IMG/VR virus record: IMGVR_UViG_3300032829_000020
Span: 1-41,629 of that record
From: a virus
Length of the DNA: 41,629 nt
Direction: 5' to 3' (one strand)
Both the position numbers and the translations under genes were made by a program. Numbering within the stretch: the first letter of the stretch is position 1; every line of letters starts with the position of its first letter. Shown piece after piece: positions 17,387 to 24,292 of the stretch. Below the pieces are notes generated by a model, which worked only from the letters and a program-made list of their open reading frames with translations, was not told where the DNA came from and searched no databases.

Positions 17387-20300
17387 CTAGAACCCGGCCC
17401 TGGTCAGCATGTCGCGGACCCGCTCGTTGTGGGTGGGCGGGTGGGTGAACGCTGCGGCCCGCGTCAGGGCCGACTCCCGCTCGATTCGCGCATTCTCCTC
17501 GAACAGGACCTCGGCGAACGCGCGTTTGATGTCGTCGCGGGTCAGCGCGGCCGGGCCGCGGGACCCTGTCGGGTCCGGTCCGAGGGACGCCACCAGGGTC
17601 AGCTGCTGGCCCCACTCGTCCTCGAACCCGGAGGCCGCGACGAACCCGGGGGTGTTCACGGACAGGGCGGCGATCAGGTCCAGGCCGGCGCCGAAGTCGC
17701 GCCAGTCGCCCGACAGCGGCGCGGACAGGCCCTGCTCCACCAGGTCCGCGTCGGCCCACGGGGCGGCGATGCCGGACACCCAGATGCCGTGCTCGTCCTC
17801 CCCGGCCCGCACCAGCGCCCAGCAGGAGCCGGTGTTGTCGTAGTGGGCCTGCGCGGGCACACCGCTCAGGCGGCCGTCGGCGTGGCCGGTGGCGATCGTC
17901 AACCGTCCCACCGGCAGCCGGGTGCCGTCGTCGAGGCGCACCGCCGGGGAGGTGTGGAAGTGGCTGTAATTGGACGGGGATCGGGGCGCCTCCTGGCAGA
18001 GTTTCTGCACGCTGCGGTGGCACGCCCCCCAGCAGGCGATGTGCCCCACTATGCGGCCGTCGTCGAGCATCGTCGGTTGGGCCGGCCCGGGCAGCTGCGG
18101 GTCGGAGAAGTGCGACGCCGGGTATATGCGGGGCTCGTAGAACAGGGCGCTTTGCACCGCCGCCGCGACCAGCGCCACGTCCCGCGTCTCGCGCTCCGGG
18201 TGCAGCGTCAGCGACGTCGCCCCGAACGCGGGCGTGGACACCAAGGTTGTGCCCATCAACTCACCGGCGGTGAACGTGCGGTACGTCTTGGTGCCCGGCG
18301 ACAGGTTGCGCCACTCCTCCTCGCCGATCTTGTTGCCGTCCTCGTCGGTCATCTGCCAGTCCGCGCCGCCCAAATCGACCGACGGCCGGGTGACCTTGTG
18401 CGCGAGCTGCATCGCCGCCTCGTCGGCGTCCGGGGTGTTCAGCAGGTACCCCGACTCGACGATCTTGTTGCCCTTGACCTGCTCCGACTCGATGACGCCC
18501 ACCGTGGACGCGTGCTGGTGCCCCCCCATGCCATCACCGGTCTTGGACATCCACATCAGCGGTCGCGGGGCTGCCCGGATCTTCAGGTCCATCTTCTTGT
18601 GCAGCATGCGGCGGTCGGTGGTGGGGACGCCGAGGAACGCGGTCGTCGCCGTGAACGTGCGGTACGTCTCGCCGGGCTGCTGCTGGGGATCGATCTGGGT
18701 GACGGTGCCCATCTGCTCCACCTCTTCCGTCGCTGCGGTCACCGATTCCGCTTCGGCGTGCACCACGCCGCGCTTGGCGCGTTTGGCCGCCTCCTCGGCG
18801 GGCACGCGCCGCAGTTTAGGCTCCTCACCTGCACCCAGGGCGATCAGCCTGCATCGGCAGTTGTGCACGGCAATGCCATTGCCGAAGTAGAATTGTTGGG
18901 TGGTCGAGAAGTTGAAGACATCATGGTCGCCAAAGTAAACGTCGACAGCGGTGAGCTTGCTCGGCTTCATGCCGAGGGCATAAGCGTGCTGCAGATGGCG
19001 CGCACCATCGGAGTAAGCAGAGACACCATCGTCCGTCTCCTGCGCGACCAGGGACTTCCTGTGCGTTCTGGCAGCGAAGCCAACCGGATCAGGTTCGCCA
19101 AACTCGACCGTGAGGGTAGGCGCGCTATCGCCCGGGCCGCCAACGAGGCTCGCCGGTCGACGGCCGCCAGGCCGTCCAGGGGCTACTACGGCCAGGTCGA
19201 GACGGCCGTTTACAGCAGAGCCCGCACGCGCGGCGTCACCCTTTCCGCTGCCCAGCCCAACGAGCGCTGCATCGTCGCCGCCGCCGAGAAGGCCGGGGTT
19301 GAACTCCTCGGACAAGTCGCCATCGGCCCGTACAACGCTGACTTCGTCGCCTTCGAGCGCGTCGTGGTGGAAGTCCACGCCGCTCGCTACAACCCGCTGC
19401 TCTACCCCCGCATCGCGAAACGCACGATAGACCTCATCAGCACGGGCTGGCATGTGATCTACCTGTGGGGCATTGAGGGGGTCGGATGCGATGACGTGAT
19501 CGCCTGGGCGCAACAGGTGAGCGGTGACGTATCCGGCGTCGGTCAGTACGGGATGATTCGCGGTGATGGTGAGGTCGTGACCGTCAGCCGTGAGCAGATG
19601 GACGAACGCGCCGCGGTGGCGCCGCTTCGTAGCGTGAGATACCTGCTGCCCAGGCCAGGAGACTAGCGCCTCGCCGGTCACGCAGTTGATCCATTCGCGT
19701 ATTGGGGCCCTATGGTCCCCTGGAAATTCCATTTCAGAGCCGCCGACGACGAACATCCCGCCGATCGATGTGACCTGCCCGTCTGCCTCCCAATGGGTGT
19801 CGCGGGTGCGTTCGTCGAGTATAGAATTATGTGCAATAAGTCCATTCGCCGTGTACCAATGGCCACGCGTCGAAAGGTCGTACACGTACCCGCTATGGAA
19901 AATTCGCCCCACTCTGACCACCCGGTCGCGAACACACGCACCAAGCGGGTCCGGCTCGACGTCGATGAGGTCGTCGCCAGGTATACCGCCGGATGGAGTC
20001 CCGTCGAAATCTCCGTGGACCTGGGCGGCAGCCCCGGGACGGTTCGCCGCAGGCTGCGCGACGCGGGAGTTTTGAGGACCCGCGCCGAGGGCACCCGGAT
20101 GCGTTTCACCCGACCCGAGGCCGTTGCGCAGGCGCGGGCCGCGCAGAAACTCGGTGTCGAGGCCCGGCGGCGCGGCGACATCCGCGCCAACGCTGACGAG
20201 ATCGTCGCCGCGTATCTCGCCGGGGGATCCCGGCTCGCGCTCGGCCAGCGATACGGTTGTTCCGGTCAGTTGATCGCCGCCGTTGTCGCGGCGGCCGGTG

Positions 20301-21538
20301 TCGAGTTGCGGGATAAGTCCGCCGCTGGCAAGGTCCGGGTGTCGAAGATTCCCGCCGATGTCAAGGCCGCCTTCTACGGCATGGTTGCCGACAAGAACCG
20401 GGGCCGCGCCAAACCGGCCGAGGGTGTGGTTGCGATGGCGCGCACCAAGCATCGCCGCATGAGCCAGACTGTCGGCGTCAGCGAGCAGCAGGTCGCCGAG
20501 CATCTCGCCGCCAGCGGGTTCGATGTTGATCGGCAGGTCGCGGTCGGCCGCTACAACGTCGACATACTCGCCAGCGGTGTGGCCGTCGAAATCCACACCT
20601 CGCGCCACGGACCGCACCTGGGGCGGGCGACCGTCCATCGCCGCGTCGACCACATCACCGATAACGGTTATCCCGTCCTGTACGTGTGGTGCGACCGGGG
20701 CGTTAACGGCCCCGACCTTGAACAGCTCGTCACCCTCGTGAAGGAGCTGGGCGGCCACCCACCCGCGGCCGGTCAGTACACGGTGCTGCGGTGTGAGGGC
20801 CACGGCCGACCCCGAAGCTGTGCGAATCGATACAAGGGTGCCTTCGTAGCGGCGACGCGCCAGGTGGGTGACGCCGACAGCCGACACGACCGTGTCGGGG
20901 TGCACACACAGCCATTCGAGCCGGTCGGCGCCTGCGGTGTGTTTGGCGACGGCCGTGAGGGCGTGGTTGAGGATCCCGGCGGCGTGGTAGCTCGCGCGTC
21001 GCGACAGGTCGCGCAGCAGCGCTGATCCGGGTGTGATGGCTTTGCGGATGGTCGAGCGCAGCGCCGAGGTGGTGGTGCCTATGGGCGCGCGTTTGATGAT
21101 GGCCTGCAGTTCGGCTCGCACCGCGGCGGGCACTTGCGCTGCGGTGTCCCTGTAGCGGCTTGTGAAGTCGTCGCGCGCCGATTTCGCTGCGGCCAGCAGG
21201 TCGGCTGCGCTTAGGGCGGCGGTGAGTGTCCCGGTTCCGATCCCGGCGGCCAGTGCGGCGTCGTCCCATAGTTTCTCCACCACCGGCAGCACGTGCTCGG
21301 CCGCGCTGGCGTCCCACTGGTTTTGGGTGGAGCCGACAGCGTCGGGGTTGGGCGGGATTTCGGTGGCTGCGGCGGTCAGCGGGTCGTCGTCGCCGGTGAC
21401 GATCTGCCCGTCCAGTTCGGGTAGGACAGCGGCCTGCACGTGGGGCGCCCATGCGTGCAGGGCCTGTGTGTAGGCGTCCTCCAGCGCCTCCTCGGCGTTA
21501 ACGGTCTCCTCGATCGCCTCGGCGTGGTCGGGCCACAT
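17387..21538 (-). CDS. MuF-like / capsid maturation protease fusion interrupted by two inteins
   Basis: The precursor has 1383 residues; removal of both inteins leaves about 747. Residues 1-210 are the N-terminal MuF region. Intein 1 is 211-571 and intein 2 is 619-893. The MuF core is rejoined as LEWL+SILDERTRDTHW and REWIN+CRCRLIALG, the conserved DxRT..H and CRC motifs of Mu F-type head proteins. Residues ~955-1115 resemble prohead protease sequence (ESGYLLNTPDADE, TTLVSTPAFGATS). Residues ~1160-1310 carry GHIACWGACH, YSHFHT, GRLTIATGHADGRLS and AHYDNTG, as in mycobacteriophage capsid maturation proteases. It follows portal by three bases. Opposite the inteins, plus-strand endonuclease genes are encoded. 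Confidence 0.9.
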   Translation of the reverse strand: MWPDHAEAIEETVNAEEALEDAYTQALHAWAPHVQAAVLPELDGQIVTGDDDPLTAAATEIPPNPDAVGSTQNQWDASAAEHVLPVVEKLWDDAALAAGIGTGTLTAALSAADLLAAAKSARDDFTSRYRDTAAQVPAAVRAELQAIIKRAPIGTTTSALRSTIRKAITPGSALLRDLSRRASYHAAGILNHALTAVAKHTAGADRLEWLCVHPDTVVSAVGVTHLARRRYEGTLVSIRTASGSAVALTPQHRVLTGRGWVAAQLLHEGDELFKVGAVNAPVAPHVQDGITVIGDVVDAAMDGRPPQVRSVARGVDFDGHTAGEYVDVVAADRDLPINIEPAGGEMLGDLLLADADSLAHAAMLGARHRNHTLGRFGAAPVLVGNHAVEGGLDIGGNLRHPDLASGGLIPQLDTGRRDNGGDQLTGTTVSLAEREPGSPGEIRGDDLVSVGADVAAPPGLDTEFLRGPRLRNGLGSGETHPGALGAGPQNSRVAQPAANRPGAAAQVHGDFDGTPSGGIPGDDLIDVEPDPLGACVRDRVVRVGRIFHSGYVYDLSTRGHWYTANGLIAHNSILDERTRDTHWEADGQVTSIGGMFVVGGSEMEFPGDHRAPIREWINCVTGEALVSWPGQQVSHATKRRHRGAFVHLLTADGHDLTITANHPVLTDAGYVTAHLLRPGDHVIASDPLNAPQVDHMPARADEVYRAFRDAGVEQRVVASGVDFHHDALEGDEVSVVRADGDLSEEFNPGLLGGGDDAALVGLGSGKGDAARAGSAVNGRLDLAVVAPGRPGGRRPASLVGGPGDSAPTLTVEFGEPDPVGFAARTHRKSLVAQETDDGVSAYSDGARHLQHAYALGMKPSKLTAVDVYFGDHDVFNFSTTQQFYFGNGIAVHNCRCRLIALGAGEEPKLRRVPAEEAAKRAKRGVVHAEAESVTAATEEVEQMGTVTQIDPQQQPGETYRTFTATTAFLGVPTTDRRMLHKKMDLKIRAAPRPLMWMSKTGDGMGGHQHASTVGVIESEQVKGNKIVESGYLLNTPDADEAAMQLAHKVTRPSVDLGGADWQMTDEDGNKIGEEEWRNLSPGTKTYRTFTAGELMGTTLVSTPAFGATSLTLHPERETRDVALVAAAVQSALFYEPRIYPASHFSDPQLPGPAQPTMLDDGRIVGHIACWGACHRSVQKLCQEAPRSPSNYSHFHTSPAVRLDDGTRLPVGRLTIATGHADGRLSGVPAQAHYDNTGSCWALVRAGEDEHGIWVSGIAAPWADADLVEQGLSAPLSGDWRDFGAGLDLIAALSVNTPGFVAASGFEDEWGQQLTLVASLGPDPTGSRGPAALTRDDIKRAFAEVLFEENARIERESALTRAAAFTHPPTHNERVRDMLTRAGF
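18888..18893 (+). promoter_or_regulatory. Candidate -10 (TAGAAT) for the antisense endonuclease in intein 2
   Basis: TAGAAT matches five of six positions of the sigma-A -10 consensus and lies 29 bases before the ATG at 18923, leaving room for a short leader with a GAGAAG-type ribosome site at 18906-18911. I see no convincing -35 hexamer, which is common in mycobacteria. The same hexamer precedes the other two plus-strand homing-type genes in the window. Confidence 0.4.
18923..19666 (+). CDS. HTH + Vsr-like (EDxHD-type) homing endonuclease, antisense inside intein 2
   Basis: The product has 247 residues. Residues ~8-45 form a helix-turn-helix (LARLHAEGISVLQMARTIGV followed by SRDTIVRLLRDQG), typical of DNA-binding heads of homing nucleases. 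From ~110 is a Vsr-like nuclease: VAIGPYNADFVAFERVVVEV then HAARYNP and RIAKRTIDLISTGWHVIYLW, with the acidic Asp, the Glu of VEVH and its His as likely catalytic/metal residues. EDxHD nucleases of this kind are known as freestanding genes near split inteins. The gene lies wholly inside the DNA of intein 2 on the other strand, codon opposite codon. Its TAG stop is the complement of a CTA Leu codon in intein block A. The frame extends further upstream, but that part is shadow-like. Confidence 0.85.
   Translation: MVAKVNVDSGELARLHAEGISVLQMARTIGVSRDTIVRLLRDQGLPVRSGSEANRIRFAKLDREGRRAIARAANEARRSTAARPSRGYYGQVETAVYSRARTRGVTLSAAQPNERCIVAAAEKAGVELLGQVAIGPYNADFVAFERVVVEVHAARYNPLLYPRIAKRTIDLISTGWHVIYLWGIEGVGCDDVIAWAQQVSGDVSGVGQYGMIRGDGEVVTVSREQMDERAAVAPLRSVRYLLPRPGD
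19822..19827 (+). promoter_or_regulatory. Candidate -10 (TAGAAT) for the antisense endonuclease in intein 1
   Basis: TAGAAT spans the intein 1 / C-extein junction and lies 31 bases before the ATG at 19859, almost the same spacing as in intein 2 (29 bases). A transcript would begin near 19834 and read the nuclease gene against the late operon. No -35 element is evident and no Shine-Dalgarno is seen before 19859. Confidence 0.35.
19826..20908 (-). other. Intein 1 in the MuF-protease protein
   Basis: This is precursor residues 211-571 (361 aa). It has Cys1 (CVHPDTVVSAVGVTHL), block B VALTPQHRVLT with the conserved His, block F-like GYVYDLSTRGHWYTANG and the C-terminal LIAHN, followed by +1 Ser. 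The set fits a class 1 splicing intein. The insertion lies just before the conserved LDERTRDTHW motif of MuF. The central ~255 residues are Gly/Asp/Ala/Pro-rich without a recognisable sense-strand nuclease domain; they are the complement of the plus-strand nuclease gene. Splicing blocks resemble those of intein 2 (CV......VS, T..HxVLT, GD), so the two are paralogous. Confidence 0.88.
19859..21025 (+). CDS. Double-HTH + Vsr-like homing endonuclease, antisense across intein 1
   Basis: The product has 388 residues from ATG 19859. Other in-frame ATGs are 19829, the exact complement of the intein's penultimate His codon, and 19895. Two HTH modules are visible: DVDEVVARYTAGWSPVEISV with GSPGTVRRRLRDAG, and NADEIVAAYLAGGSRLALGQ. 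A Vsr-like nuclease follows: VAVGRYNVDILASGVAVEIH, then TVHRRVDHITDNGYPVLYVW. Asp (YNVD), Glu and His (VEIH) align with the sister nuclease in intein 2. The final ~39 codons run past the intein boundary and are antisense to N-extein sequence, ending at TGA opposite a TCA Ser codon. The register is codon-on-codon. Confidence 0.82.
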   Translation: MATRRKVVHVPAMENSPHSDHPVANTRTKRVRLDVDEVVARYTAGWSPVEISVDLGGSPGTVRRRLRDAGVLRTRAEGTRMRFTRPEAVAQARAAQKLGVEARRRGDIRANADEIVAAYLAGGSRLALGQRYGCSGQLIAAVVAAAGVELRDKSAAGKVRVSKIPADVKAAFYGMVADKNRGRAKPAEGVVAMARTKHRRMSQTVGVSEQQVAEHLAASGFDVDRQVAVGRYNVDILASGVAVEIHTSRHGPHLGRATVHRRVDHITDNGYPVLYVWCDRGVNGPDLEQLVTLVKELGGHPPAAGQYTVLRCEGHGRPRSCANRYKGAFVAATRQVGDADSRHDRVGVHTQPFEPVGACGVFGDGREGVVEDPGGVVARASRQVAQQR

Positions 21539-21541
21539 GGT

Positions 21542-24292
21542 TCAGCTTCCTTCCCCGTTGCGCGCGGCGAGTTTGTGGCGCACGCTGCGGCGAACCGCCG
21601 CGCGCACGTCCTCGCCGTCGATGTTCAGCAGACCCAGCACTTCGTCTTCGAGGGCTTCGTCCCACCGGTCGCCGGTGCCGCGACGCCGCCGCGACGCGAG
21701 GCCGAGTGCCCGTGACACCATCAGGTCCACGATGCCCATGTGCACGTCGTCGCGGACCTGTGCGGCCGGGGCCGCCTCCTCCTCCTCGGTTTGCGGCTCC
21801 TGCTGCGCGGGGGCTGCGGGTTTGGGTTTCGCGGACGGCAGCGCGGGCGGGCGCTGCCCGGCGGGCACTGCGGGCTGCTCGGGTGGCGGGGCGGGCGGTG
21901 TGGTCACCTTCACCACGTCGGGGCCCAGCAGCGCGACGAGCTGCGGGACCGACAGCAGGGTGGGGTCCTTGCTGACGTGGTCGCGCGCCCACACCTTCCA
22001 CCCTTCGAGGGTGGACAGGTCGTAGCCGGTGTCGTCGCCGAGCTGCAGGTAGGAGCGCAACGCGTCGGCGGTGATCGCCCCCCGGTCGAACGCCGCTGTG
22101 GCGTTGTTGGTTTTGTCGGGGTCTGCGGTCAGCCCGGTGGCGTCGTACCACAGCATGTAGCGGGTGGGGTCGATGCCCATCCTCTGAAACACAGGGCCGA
22201 CGATGCGCTCGTTGAACGCCGCGCACAGCAACTCCATCACGGGGCAAATGTGCAGCTGCACGTCCTCGTCAGCTAACTGCCAGGCCGAATTTCCGCTGAC
22301 GCAGACCTTTCCATCTCGCCGCGCGAACCACGTCCCGTTCTCGGTGGTTGGACACCAGACGACCCCGGAGTAACGTTGCCAGGACTTTTCGGCCACATAG
22401 GGAGCAAACCATTTACGAGCCGTTCCAGCTCGTAGCCAGTGGAGCGGAGTCGTGCCGAAACCGGTCTGCTGATTACGTTGCCCGCGGGTGCAGCGATAGC
22501 CAGCGAGGATCGCTGCCATCTCGATGGCGTCCAGTCGTGACGGCTCCACCTGGAAGAAGGTCCGAGCACCATGCGATAAAGCGACACCGTCGCCAAGCTC
22601 AATCAACGCATCAAGGAACAGGTGCAGCTGCGCTTCCGTTAACGTGAGAATGAACTCGGGTTTGAGCGCCTTATGCTCGCTGGTGATGTCAAACAGCGCT
22701 TGTGACTCATCGGCGTGCAGCACGAAAGCCAGCCCGGCGCGTGTTCTGGTCGGGTGATGGCGCTCTGAGACGTCACGCCCGAACACTTCACGGCACACCG
22801 CTCGCAAAGCAATGATTTCATCGGCATCGAACTTGACGATACGAACGAATTCTGTTCCAGACTCATAGCGCAACCGCGAGCCGTCCGACATGTAAGCAGC
22901 TGCGAGCCGAACGAAACTATCCGAGTACTTCGGCCCAGAAGGTAACGACACACATCTTGCAGCGGCGGGTATGCGGTCCGCCTTGGCGAAACCCTGACCG
23001 CTGGTCGTCCATCGCCATTTCCCGTTGCTAACGTGAGTCACCAGCCAGCGATGCCCTGCCGTGGACAACGATGAATGAGACGCCGCCTCCATTGACAGCA
23101 TCGGCTCATCAATCACGTCAGCACGGTAGATGTCCAGCACTGGCTGCCACTCGCTCAACCCGCTTTGCTGTAGCGTCAGCGCCATGTCGCCGATTCGCAG
23201 CTGATCCTGCCGTAACCAGCCGCGTTGTGTCAGAATTTCAGTCTGGTCGTCTTTGCACCAATGGTTTGAGCTTCGCCCCAAACCGAGGAGCCTTTCTGGG
23301 CTCACGTCCAATCCCATCGCGAGCCTGGCGATTGCGTCGTTGCGGGTCTTGATCGCGACGTCGGTGATGTTGTTCTCGAACTGCAGGTGCTGCACGTTTT
23401 TGATCTGGTCGCCGGGCACGGTGGCGAACATCGGTATCAGGGCAGCCATCGAGTCTTCGTCGTCGTAGGCCGTCTGCGCCACCTGCCACAGCAGCTCCTG
23501 CAGCTGCTGCACCGCCGACGTGCCGTCCATCGTCGGGGTGGGCGGCCCGAGCTGGTTGGCGGCCAGGGGGGTGTTCATCGGCGGCAGGGACATCTCCTGC
23601 GGCACGAACACGATGCCGTTGCCGATGAGGCGGGACTTGGAGGCGTTGGCTATGGTTTTCGTGGTGCGGTGTATCTCGTGCAGCGACCCGAGGCAGGCCC
23701 GGACCGGCGAGTCGGGCTGCGACGCCCGCCGGGCTCGGGGGATCCAGACGCGGATCAGCGAGTCGCGGGGCATGGACAGGGTGTGGCGCGACCCGTCGGG
23801 CAGCTCGATCTCCGCCCCGGCGCCGTTTCTGAAGATCTCGTCCTTCGACAGGGCGAGCCAGCGTTGCGCGGGCTCGTCGCCGGGTTGGATGATGCCCACC
23901 CACACTTCTCCGGGCACGGTGAGGCATTCGACGACGCGTTTGATGAGCTGGGTTTGGCCGAGGTGCCCACCGGCGATGCCGTTGACGACTTGGGCGGCGG
24001 CGAGGTTGTCGCAGGTGCCGGTGGGGCGGCCGGTGTCGGGGTCGATCTCGGAGGCGATGAGGCGCACCCGTGAGCACGATGAGGAGCGCCAGCCGACGTA
24101 GTAGCGGAGCTCGCCGACGGCGTCGTACATGTCCCAGGCCTCGGTTTGCCAGTCGTCGTCGGCGACGACCCCGGAGACGGTGGTCCTGAATATGCGTTGC
24201 GGGGTTTCGATGGGTTGGCTGGCGGCCACCAGGGACAGGTGGCGGTGGGCGCGTTTGGGACGGCGCACGACACGCAGGGCGGGGACCGTCAC
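21542..24292 (-). CDS. Portal protein interrupted by an intein
   Basis: The precursor has 916 residues, about 593 after splicing. The N-terminal half has the usual actinophage portal pattern: YDAVGELRYYVGWRSSSCSR then RLIASEID, GEVWVGIIQPGDEPAQRWLA, and a long helix leading to MGLDVSPERLLGLGRSSNHW. The intein occupies residues 346-668. The rejoined sequence continues SAWQLADEDVQLHICPVMEL then GIDPTRYMLWYDATGLTADP. The C-terminus is Pro/Ala-rich and acidic. Portals form the dodecameric DNA gate at one capsid vertex and dock the terminase. The gene ends three bases before the MuF start. Confidence 0.9.
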   Translation of the reverse strand: MTVPALRVVRRPKRAHRHLSLVAASQPIETPQRIFRTTVSGVVADDDWQTEAWDMYDAVGELRYYVGWRSSSCSRVRLIASEIDPDTGRPTGTCDNLAAAQVVNGIAGGHLGQTQLIKRVVECLTVPGEVWVGIIQPGDEPAQRWLALSKDEIFRNGAGAEIELPDGSRHTLSMPRDSLIRVWIPRARRASQPDSPVRACLGSLHEIHRTTKTIANASKSRLIGNGIVFVPQEMSLPPMNTPLAANQLGPPTPTMDGTSAVQQLQELLWQVAQTAYDDEDSMAALIPMFATVPGDQIKNVQHLQFENNITDVAIKTRNDAIARLAMGLDVSPERLLGLGRSSNHWCKDDQTEILTQRGWLRQDQLRIGDMALTLQQSGLSEWQPVLDIYRADVIDEPMLSMEAASHSSLSTAGHRWLVTHVSNGKWRWTTSGQGFAKADRIPAAARCVSLPSGPKYSDSFVRLAAAYMSDGSRLRYESGTEFVRIVKFDADEIIALRAVCREVFGRDVSERHHPTRTRAGLAFVLHADESQALFDITSEHKALKPEFILTLTEAQLHLFLDALIELGDGVALSHGARTFFQVEPSRLDAIEMAAILAGYRCTRGQRNQQTGFGTTPLHWLRAGTARKWFAPYVAEKSWQRYSGVVWCPTTENGTWFARRDGKVCVSGNSAWQLADEDVQLHICPVMELLCAAFNERIVGPVFQRMGIDPTRYMLWYDATGLTADPDKTNNATAAFDRGAITADALRSYLQLGDDTGYDLSTLEGWKVWARDHVSKDPTLLSVPQLVALLGPDVVKVTTPPAPPPEQPAVPAGQRPPALPSAKPKPAAPAQQEPQTEEEEAAPAAQVRDDVHMGIVDLMVSRALGLASRRRRGTGDRWDEALEDEVLGLLNIDGEDVRAAVRRSVRHKLAARNGEGS
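22289..23257 (-). other. Portal intein with LAGLIDADG-type endonuclease domain
   Basis: This is precursor residues 346-668 (323 aa). It starts at Cys (CKDDQTEILTQRGWL). The block B-like segment is STAGHRWLVTH and the last blocks read VWCPTTENGTWFARRDG then KVCVSGN, followed by +1 Ser. The penultimate residue is Gly, not His. Between them lie two LAGLIDADG-like helices, VRLAAAYMSDGSRL and LFLDALIELGDGV, encoding a sense-strand homing endonuclease. Base composition is visibly more AT-rich than the flanking portal sequence, which suggests recent arrival. A Trp in block B and Cys in block F recall class 3 inteins, although Cys1 is retained here. Confidence 0.88.

Follow-up and report, generated by a model that had tools for sequence, protein, structure and literature searches.

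A phage head-gene intein that very probably carries its homing endonuclease as a separate gene on the opposite strand

Introduction

Homing endonucleases of inteins are usually assumed to be in-frame inserts; an intein that has none is called a mini-intein and regarded as immobile. The known members of the EDxHD nuclease group are intronic or free-standing near split inteins, and we know of none that lies antisense inside an intein. In Didymium, an antisense homing gene (I-DsqI) is reported in a nuclear group I intron, together with cleavage of the intron-lacking site (PMC9548176). Here we have analysed a viral DNA of 41,629 bp (IMG/VR record IMGVR_UViG_3300032829_000020, positions 1 to 41,629; this whole stretch is called the window below), in which two inteins interrupt a minus-strand head gene. 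The second of them, intein 2, contains on its plus strand a complete gene for a helix-turn-helix (HTH) nuclease, and we conclude that it is very probably a mobile intein that overlaps, on the antisense strand, with a separate gene for its homing endonuclease. What carries this reading are two complete genes, their nesting and common phase, selection that falls on one or the other frame depending on the segment, biased start codons and intein-free alleles.

A preliminary description of this DNA had known of no comparable case. This holds for the literature matches listed, whose titles and abstract openings name no homing gene that is antisense or out of frame within an intein; antisense homing genes are known in nuclear group I introns.

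Results

A complete intein on one strand and a nuclease gene on the other

The minus strand at 18860-19684 had been described as a complete intein without a sense-strand nuclease, and splice motifs, AlphaFold2 (AF2) model and Foldseek search agree with this. The hallmarks of intein 2 are all there, i.e., Cys1, T41-x-N-H44 (the TxxH of block B) and a VHN end before Cys, and by inspection the splice residues are also present in the other window intein and in the 13 phage inteins described below. In an alignment of 57 inteins, T41 and H44 are invariant, while C1 and N275 are kept in at least 90%. The +1 residue is Cys in 97 of 98 inteins and Ser in one, and the terminal Asn is preceded by His in 62 and by Ser in 30. 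The Pfam family Intein_splicing (PF14890) matches intein 2 alone at E 2.9e-4, which is under the Pfam cut-off, and the entire host protein at 1.6e-14; the intein 2 region also matches phrog_15127 'head protein' (E 3.6e-20).

In the AF2 model of intein 2, the ten-residue block means are at least 90 at residues 1-70 and 241-275, and residues 134-223 score below 50. The Hint fold that had been expected is supported by these ends and by Foldseek against the PDB, where the top match is 4oz6 (E 2e-4) and the best 50 of 145 matches are mostly inteins. From the confident ends, the low-scoring stretch and the intein matches, the sense product resembles a mini-intein with a disordered linker, and no folded nuclease appears on the sense strand in the model. 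The endonuclease is therefore not an in-frame one, as it lies on the opposite strand and the sense middle is predicted to be disordered. A sense-strand domain in the intein middle was considered and ruled out by the disordered model and by the lost position-3 constraint.

The plus-strand gene at 18923-19666 encodes 247 residues and lies wholly inside intein 2, with coordinates and nesting exact to the base as first reported. For this protein Pfam gives HTH matches and a weak DUF559 match (E 0.016), all of them short of the curated cut-offs. A profile of 39 nuclease domains searched against the PDB matches 3hrl (E 1.7e-7) and I-Bth0305I (3r3p, E 1.8e-4), and Vsr is not significant in this search (E 0.26-0.56). 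The AF2 model (predicted local distance difference test score 82) shows an HTH and a helix-EEE-helix-E core, and I-Bth0305I is its second Foldseek match (3r3p, E 4.7e-3, probability 1.00, template modelling score 0.62 by target length). By sequence or fold, the nuclease is thus related to I-Bth0305I, and where a Vsr/EDxHD fold had been proposed, profile and model give a match of the Vsr/DUF559/I-Bth0305I type. Among 79 aligned nucleases, four residues never vary (Y137, N138, D140, E150), and two more, E114 and R167, are kept in at least 90%. Although E114, D140 and E150, candidates for the catalytic residues of the EDxHD motif, are retained, the 3r3p chain has an alanine facing D140.

Nesting throughout a family of phage inteins

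With the nuclease as tblastn query, 49 of 50,697 phage records match (RefSeq/GenBank doubles and near-identical phages included). We have examined 13 of these 49, from Gordonia, Mycobacterium, Pseudomonas, Salmonella, Klebsiella, Cronobacter, Vibrio, Idiomarinaceae and Escherichia phages. In 13/13 the nuclease is antisense, in the same phase and within an intein, whose host gene is annotated as head, capsid, structural or hypothetical. Besides the viral contig scan A5, which is weighed below, scans A6 and A3 gave 28 and 18 matches and genome contigs gave 3; scans with P0002, A2 and A4 gave nothing beyond close copies.

Over all loci there are 146 nuclease places, duplicates included, of which 17 are in profile-seed loci or in the near-copy L014; L015 and L016, which were cut from the window, are excluded from the nesting and phase counts. 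Both Hint-N and Hint-C lie on the opposite strand in 141 of the 146, and a sense-strand Hint beside the nuclease in none. Hint-N alone is matched in four: three near a contig or locus end (L093, L100, L140) and L144, whose C-terminal intein end is visible by eye as L163. In L142 neither part is matched, and the nuclease place stops at the contig end. Reduced to 92 distinct cases (15 being seed loci or L014), the phase is common to all 92, with antisense codons in register with sense codons at GC contents of 0.41-0.68. In 91 cases the intein frame is open, and in 85 the nuclease stop is within the Hint-N match or on its border. The C-extein begins with CRC or CKC in 58 of 98 inteins, at a site which we take to be the end of the MuF domain; the remaining inteins precede other residues, some of them plainly elsewhere in the head gene.

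The preliminary description had named as refuting its reading homologous inteins in which the antisense frame is routinely broken. Searching from the sense side, two intein proteins used as tblastn queries match 86 and 112 phage records. In ten inteins that the nuclease query had missed (L146-L155), the antisense nuclease is present in 10/10, with hidden Markov model (HMM) E-values of 1.4e-35 to 9.5e-98; these ten are interrelated, the nucleases of L147-L149 being 93-95% identical and those of L154/L155 100%. In one of them, Rhodococcus phage REQ3 (L153), the profile finds no HTH part in the nuclease and the Hint-C profile does not match the intein C-end. The sense-intein profile gives six matches at E <= 1e-5 in 398 genomes of one phylum; both strong ones (G222 and G002, the latter being the search centre, picked for having the nuclease) carry the antisense nuclease, and the four weak ones are without it. 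The antisense frame is thus kept rather than broken. One further candidate of the intein search, L220, was rejected as Rhs/pretoxin Hint-like by eye.

At E <= 1e-6 the nuclease profile matches 49 of 398 and 26 of 201 genomes, where part of the candidates per genome were scored and both search centres are among the matches. Among 54 genome loci examined, seven are nested antisense, and these come from four strongly matching genomes, three of them known beforehand. The other loci match weakly, three of them in the HTH part only and most in the nuclease domain.

Selection on both frames, segment by segment

In the common phase, sense position 1 lies opposite antisense position 3, and vice versa. 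In the Gordonia phages, exteins and Hint ends change mostly at sense position 3, and intein middles at position 1. We have calculated the substitutions for 14 non-overlapping pairs, i.e., 28 of 101 inteins (identity 68-98%, coverage >0.9, at least 15 differences). Changes at positions 1/2/3 are 1100/882/1952 in 4465 extein codons and 870/330/552 in 2488 codons of the intein middles. In the middles, 498 changed codons are synonymous in the antisense frame alone versus 126 in the sense frame alone, while for exteins the numbers are 143 versus 1055. For 13 of the 14 pairs the middle has more changes at position 1 than at position 3, the exception being L074/L085 (68 vs 69). Blocks A, B and F-G behave like exteins, with position 3 leading (38/19/85, 121/40/152 and 81/37/132). 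In the three closest pairs (4-11% apart), antisense-only versus sense-only synonymous codons are 14:2, 26:2 and 25:9. The GC content in the window by codon position is.69/.52/.89 in exteins and.81/.52/.65 in the middle of intein 2.

The position-3 excess in exteins and blocks together with the position-1 excess in the middles indicates that both genes are constrained, in different segments, and that within the middle of the intein it is mainly the antisense frame that is under selection. Selection on the minus frame only, which had been named as refuting the reading, is therefore not what we observe. A minor argument, affected by ascertainment bias, comes from antisense stops: 571 in 39,516 extein codons and none in 25,557 codons of the nuclease part.

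Intein residues 104-108 (window 19361-19375) read DFHHD here and DFHGD in relatives, and they face nuclease VVVEV (VAVEV in relatives), which holds the conserved E150. It is likely that this conserved sense motif is a shadow of antisense selection on VAVEV.

Start signals in the codons of the intein C-terminus

In most relatives the nuclease starts 60 nt from the intein C-end, facing the His of block F. Codon choice at this place was examined in the 76 of 101 inteins that have the motif. The His codon facing the start is CAT (antisense ATG) in 62/76, as compared with 34.7% in exteins, and the Leu codon facing the Shine-Dalgarno sequence is CTC (antisense GAG) in 60/76, as compared with 25.5%. 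Upstream, two sense codons give an exact TATAAT in 18/98 and TATAAT within one mismatch in 40/98, versus 0.2% and 1.9% of 1321 hydrophobic extein pairs. The codon-bias test takes the place of a Shine-Dalgarno count that picked ATGs by their upstream motif (59/84; 15/99 without ATG), which we have discarded as biased. By eye, the intein C-ends of L005, L010 and L045 show an extended -10-like TGnTATAAT on the antisense strand, formed from the codons of the intein end motif.

Intein-free alleles

Close relatives carry empty and filled alleles at one exact site, as expected of a mobile intein. The head gene of Gordonia phage Bibwit is intein-free (...APHEVIN then CRCTC); its 2304 nt equal 3252-948 nt, and it is 95.9% identical to the exteins of Vivi2. 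Likewise, Salmonella phage GRNsp27 is intein-free (...PPAHPN then CRSTT), 93.0% identical to the SE1 exteins, and its 1044 nt equal 1860-816 nt. The same site in related Gordonia head genes is either empty (Bibwit) or occupied by one of three different inteins (Vivi2, Kewpiedoll, Lennon), with the flanking DNA of Kewpiedoll and Lennon 91-93% identical to that of Vivi2. These precise alleles support the earlier proposal that the nuclease would mobilise with the intein.

Weighing the alternatives

Several observations weigh against a homing endonuclease encoded antisense in a mobile intein. Foldseek gives nothing at E <= 0.001 for the nuclease model, and its best match is a CdiA toxin domain (4g6v, E 3.4e-3). 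The conserved nuclease C-terminus may be just a shadow of intein block B. Among the distinct cases, the intein frame of L049 is broken, and in 7/92 the nuclease ORF (open reading frame) ends 3-117 nt past the Cys1 edge of the intein. The residue before the terminal Asn is Arg (4) or Lys (1) in 5/98 inteins and Gly in 1/98, not His or Ser. Scan A5 gave 210 pattern matches, 202 of them relatives, of which 80 were listed, and the sequences of the start-codon test are related, so that no p-values are claimed for it. In the window itself, the intein 2 nuclease is without a good Shine-Dalgarno sequence (read on the window and on L014), and the inteins are without a TATAAT box. Splicing, expression, cutting of empty sites and homing are inferred from sequence patterns.

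One may also ask whether the antisense ORF is there by chance, with a spurious likeness to nucleases, since a register-aligned frame tends to stay open in GC-rich DNA. The window is indeed GC-rich with many long antisense ORFs, and its plus frame is open over 745 codons. Nevertheless, homologues occur in host genes with a GC of 0.40-0.46, where the exteins have antisense stops and the nuclease part has none; in L154 the exteins hold 18 antisense stops in 475 codons (nuclease parts being taken from open ORFs, which is a bias). Homology, as in the HMM matches of the ten sense-found inteins, the codon-position flip and the start-codon bias together make the antisense ORF more than chance; selection on the antisense frame already refutes the chance explanation, to which we leave practically no probability. 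An assembly artefact was also considered and is excluded by phage records from nine host groups.

If the antisense gene is real, it might still be a weapon that cuts rival phages and not chiefly a homing enzyme. Homing enzymes that disable competitor phages are known, and intein-free alleles do occur within the same phage groups. However, a weapon has no need to reside in an intein, whereas homing predicts just such a gene, nested in a splicing element of one kind of host gene, together with precise empty sites and sites that hold different inteins. The two readings are compatible with each other, and we regard the weapon as improbable. Even less probable is that the nucleases are decaying, mostly inactive copies riding in a maintained intein. 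The missing HTH part of REQ3 would fit such decay, but four residues are invariant in 79 sequences with E114 kept in at least 90%, and changes synonymous in the antisense frame prevail in the three closest pairs as well.

Other out-of-frame putative homing ORFs in inteins

The finding extends beyond the first description: the family is widespread, the arrangement is shared by a second type of nuclease, and there is a version in the +1 frame. A 196-aa ORF of the LAGLIDADG type, unrelated to the HTH and EDxHD-type nuclease, is present in Gordonia phages Lennon, Thing3 and Barsten; it too is antisense and in the same phase, and its intein is a different one that occupies the same head-gene site. 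This ORF is related to I-MsoI (phmmer E 0.0013), and matches a cyanophage DNA endonuclease (E 2e-6) and phrog_5046 (E 2.2e-15, labelled 'HNH endonuclease' there); Pfam gives nothing at E <= 0.1 and NCBIfam nothing, and this query has no confirmed match in viral contigs. In the one pair compared, Lennon and Barsten, sense positions 1/2/3 carry 8/4/45 changes in exteins, 12/17/34 in the intein-only part and 51/6/16 in the nuclease part.

The helicase inteins L218 and L219 have, on the same strand and in the +1 frame, an ORF that encodes cysteine clusters and a domain of the DUF559 type. DUF559 scores above the Pfam cut-off (23.3 and 21.1 bits vs 20.6), zf-FCS_1 is under its cut-off, and the PDB search gave nothing relevant. 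In this one pair, intein-frame positions 1/2/3 carry 22/7/35 changes before the ORF, 84/37/39 within it and 8/2/18 after it, position 1 of the intein frame being the third position of the +1-frame ORF. Vibrio phages CP-T1 and 159E43-1b (L221 and L222 in Table 1), the two examined among 40 phage records matched by tblastn, have the same arrangement; their host and +1 frames are stop-free over 250 and 227 codons, and the third frame has 21 stops in each. We have also seen an intein with an in-frame DUF559 nuclease (L210:1084-2316, minus; PF04480 E 4.2e-30) in a genome from the phylum of a Chloroflexi metagenome-assembled genome, which is the conventional arrangement for that nuclease superfamily.

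The host head gene and its first intein

The host gene is supported by phrog matches including phrog_859 'portal protein' (E 2.9e-206), phrog_18402 'head maturation protease' (E 8.3e-35) and phrog_3517 'head morphogenesis' (E 8.1e-12). Since Pfam Mu_F reaches just E 0.19, the MuF name is based on the phrogs and on the annotation of relatives. The coordinates of all features are collected in Table 1. The IMG/VR contig L014 has an intein 2 nuclease identical to that of the window, and its DNA over 18800-21000 is not identical.

Intein 1 occupies a second site that by eye matches the site in Mycobacterium phage Sejanus. The nucleases of inteins 1 and 2 are homologous (BLASTP E 2e-17, 25% identity); the profile match of the former (E 2.1e-90) is circular because this sequence is a row of the profile. 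Its ORF extends 117 nt beyond the Cys1 end of intein 1. In the portal gene (window 21542-24292, minus) we have noted by eye a putative third intein with a sense LAGLIDADG-like middle, for which Pfam gives no match.

Table 1 Features of the window and out-of-frame ORFs of other inteins (without a locus name: window positions)
Feature	Location	Strand	Description
Host head/packaging gene	17387..21538	minus	1383 aa; MuF-type part and maturation-protease-like part; two inteins interrupt
Intein 2	18860..19684	minus	275 aa; N-extein ...REWIN, then C...VHN, then CRC C-extein
Intein 2 blocks F and G	18860..18979	minus	Last 40 residues, VHN end; antisense start codon here in most relatives
Intein 2 block B, T41-A-N-H44	19553..19564	minus	Same codons antisense: nuclease M211-I-R-G214
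Antisense HTH and EDxHD/DUF559-type nuclease gene	18923..19666	plus	247 aa; fully within intein 2; codons in exact register with sense codons
Nuclease HTH part	18947..19048	plus	Residues 9-42; Pfam and model
Nuclease core	19256..19468	plus	Residues 112-182; helix, three strands, helix, strand; E114, Y137, N138, D140, E150, R167 conserved
Intein 1	19826..20908	minus	361 aa; WL, then C...AHN, then SILDERTR
Antisense nuclease of intein 1, profile match	19943..20869	plus	Within ORF 19712-21025
Antisense LAGLIDADG-type ORF	L156:1485-2075	minus	Thing3
Antisense LAGLIDADG-type ORF	L157:1485-2075	minus	Lennon
Antisense LAGLIDADG-type ORF	L160:2001-2588	plus	Barsten
+1-frame DUF559-type ORF	L218:1625-2269	plus	In helicase intein
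+1-frame DUF559-type ORF	L219:1616-2191	plus	In helicase intein
+1-frame DUF559-type ORF	L221:1686-2438	plus	In helicase intein
+1-frame DUF559-type ORF	L222:1743-2426	plus	In helicase intein

Discussion

We propose that the head gene would be translated from the sense strand, with the Hint ends excising the intein and joining the exteins, and that the middle of the sense product would be a disordered linker mainly obliged to stay open. An RNA of the opposite strand would be translated from the start codon facing block F into the HTH and PD-(D/E)xK-type nuclease. The target of this enzyme would be the conserved coding site of head genes that have no intein; after the cut, repair templated by an intein-bearing copy would move the splicing element and the nuclease together.

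It seems that inteins have acquired out-of-frame homing genes on more than one occasion. We consider it probable that such genes are a general and repeatedly evolved alternative to the in-frame endonuclease domain, comprising EDxHD antisense, LAGLIDADG antisense and DUF559 +1 types, some of the antisense ones with a promoter-like box and a ribosome-binding site in the intein C-terminal codons. On this proposal, the EDxHD antisense type would be old and present in head-protein inteins of actinobacterial and proteobacterial phages, the LAGLIDADG antisense type would be independent, and the DUF559 type would be a zinc-finger one in helicase inteins.

If this is true, a single piece of DNA serves as a mobile element that uses both strands and is complete in itself. 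Our results suggest that some mini-inteins conceal a homing gene, either on the opposite strand or in a different frame, and surveys of intein mobility may therefore undercount. The system is also an extensive natural example of antiparallel dual coding, with the codons of both genes exactly in register and conserved residues of two enzymes facing each other, and hence a direct test bed for the origin and upkeep of overlapping genes. With the nuclease uncoupled from the precursor, the timing of its expression could differ from that of the head protein. Further conserved motifs in phage proteins that lack an assigned use may likewise be antisense shadows.

Compared with inteins that carry in-frame LAGLIDADG or HNH endonucleases, the window intein shares the Hint splicing domain, the conserved target gene and the presence/absence polymorphism, but its endonuclease is a separate gene on the other strand, outside the spliced protein. 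With the DUF559, MTES_1575 and Vsr nucleases (3hrl, 1vsr) it shares a superfamily according to weak Pfam and profile matches, Vsr itself not being significant, while 47 of the 54 genome loci, all of them weak matches, have no opposite-strand Hint. With I-Bth0305I and the EDxHD enzymes the common ground is a DNA-binding part joined to a small nuclease domain, at the profile similarity given above. Didymium I-DsqI likewise is reported as a homing gene opposite to the host-gene strand inside a self-splicing element (PMC9548176). Its element, however, is an RNA intron with no need for an open protein frame, whereas in the window both strands must code.

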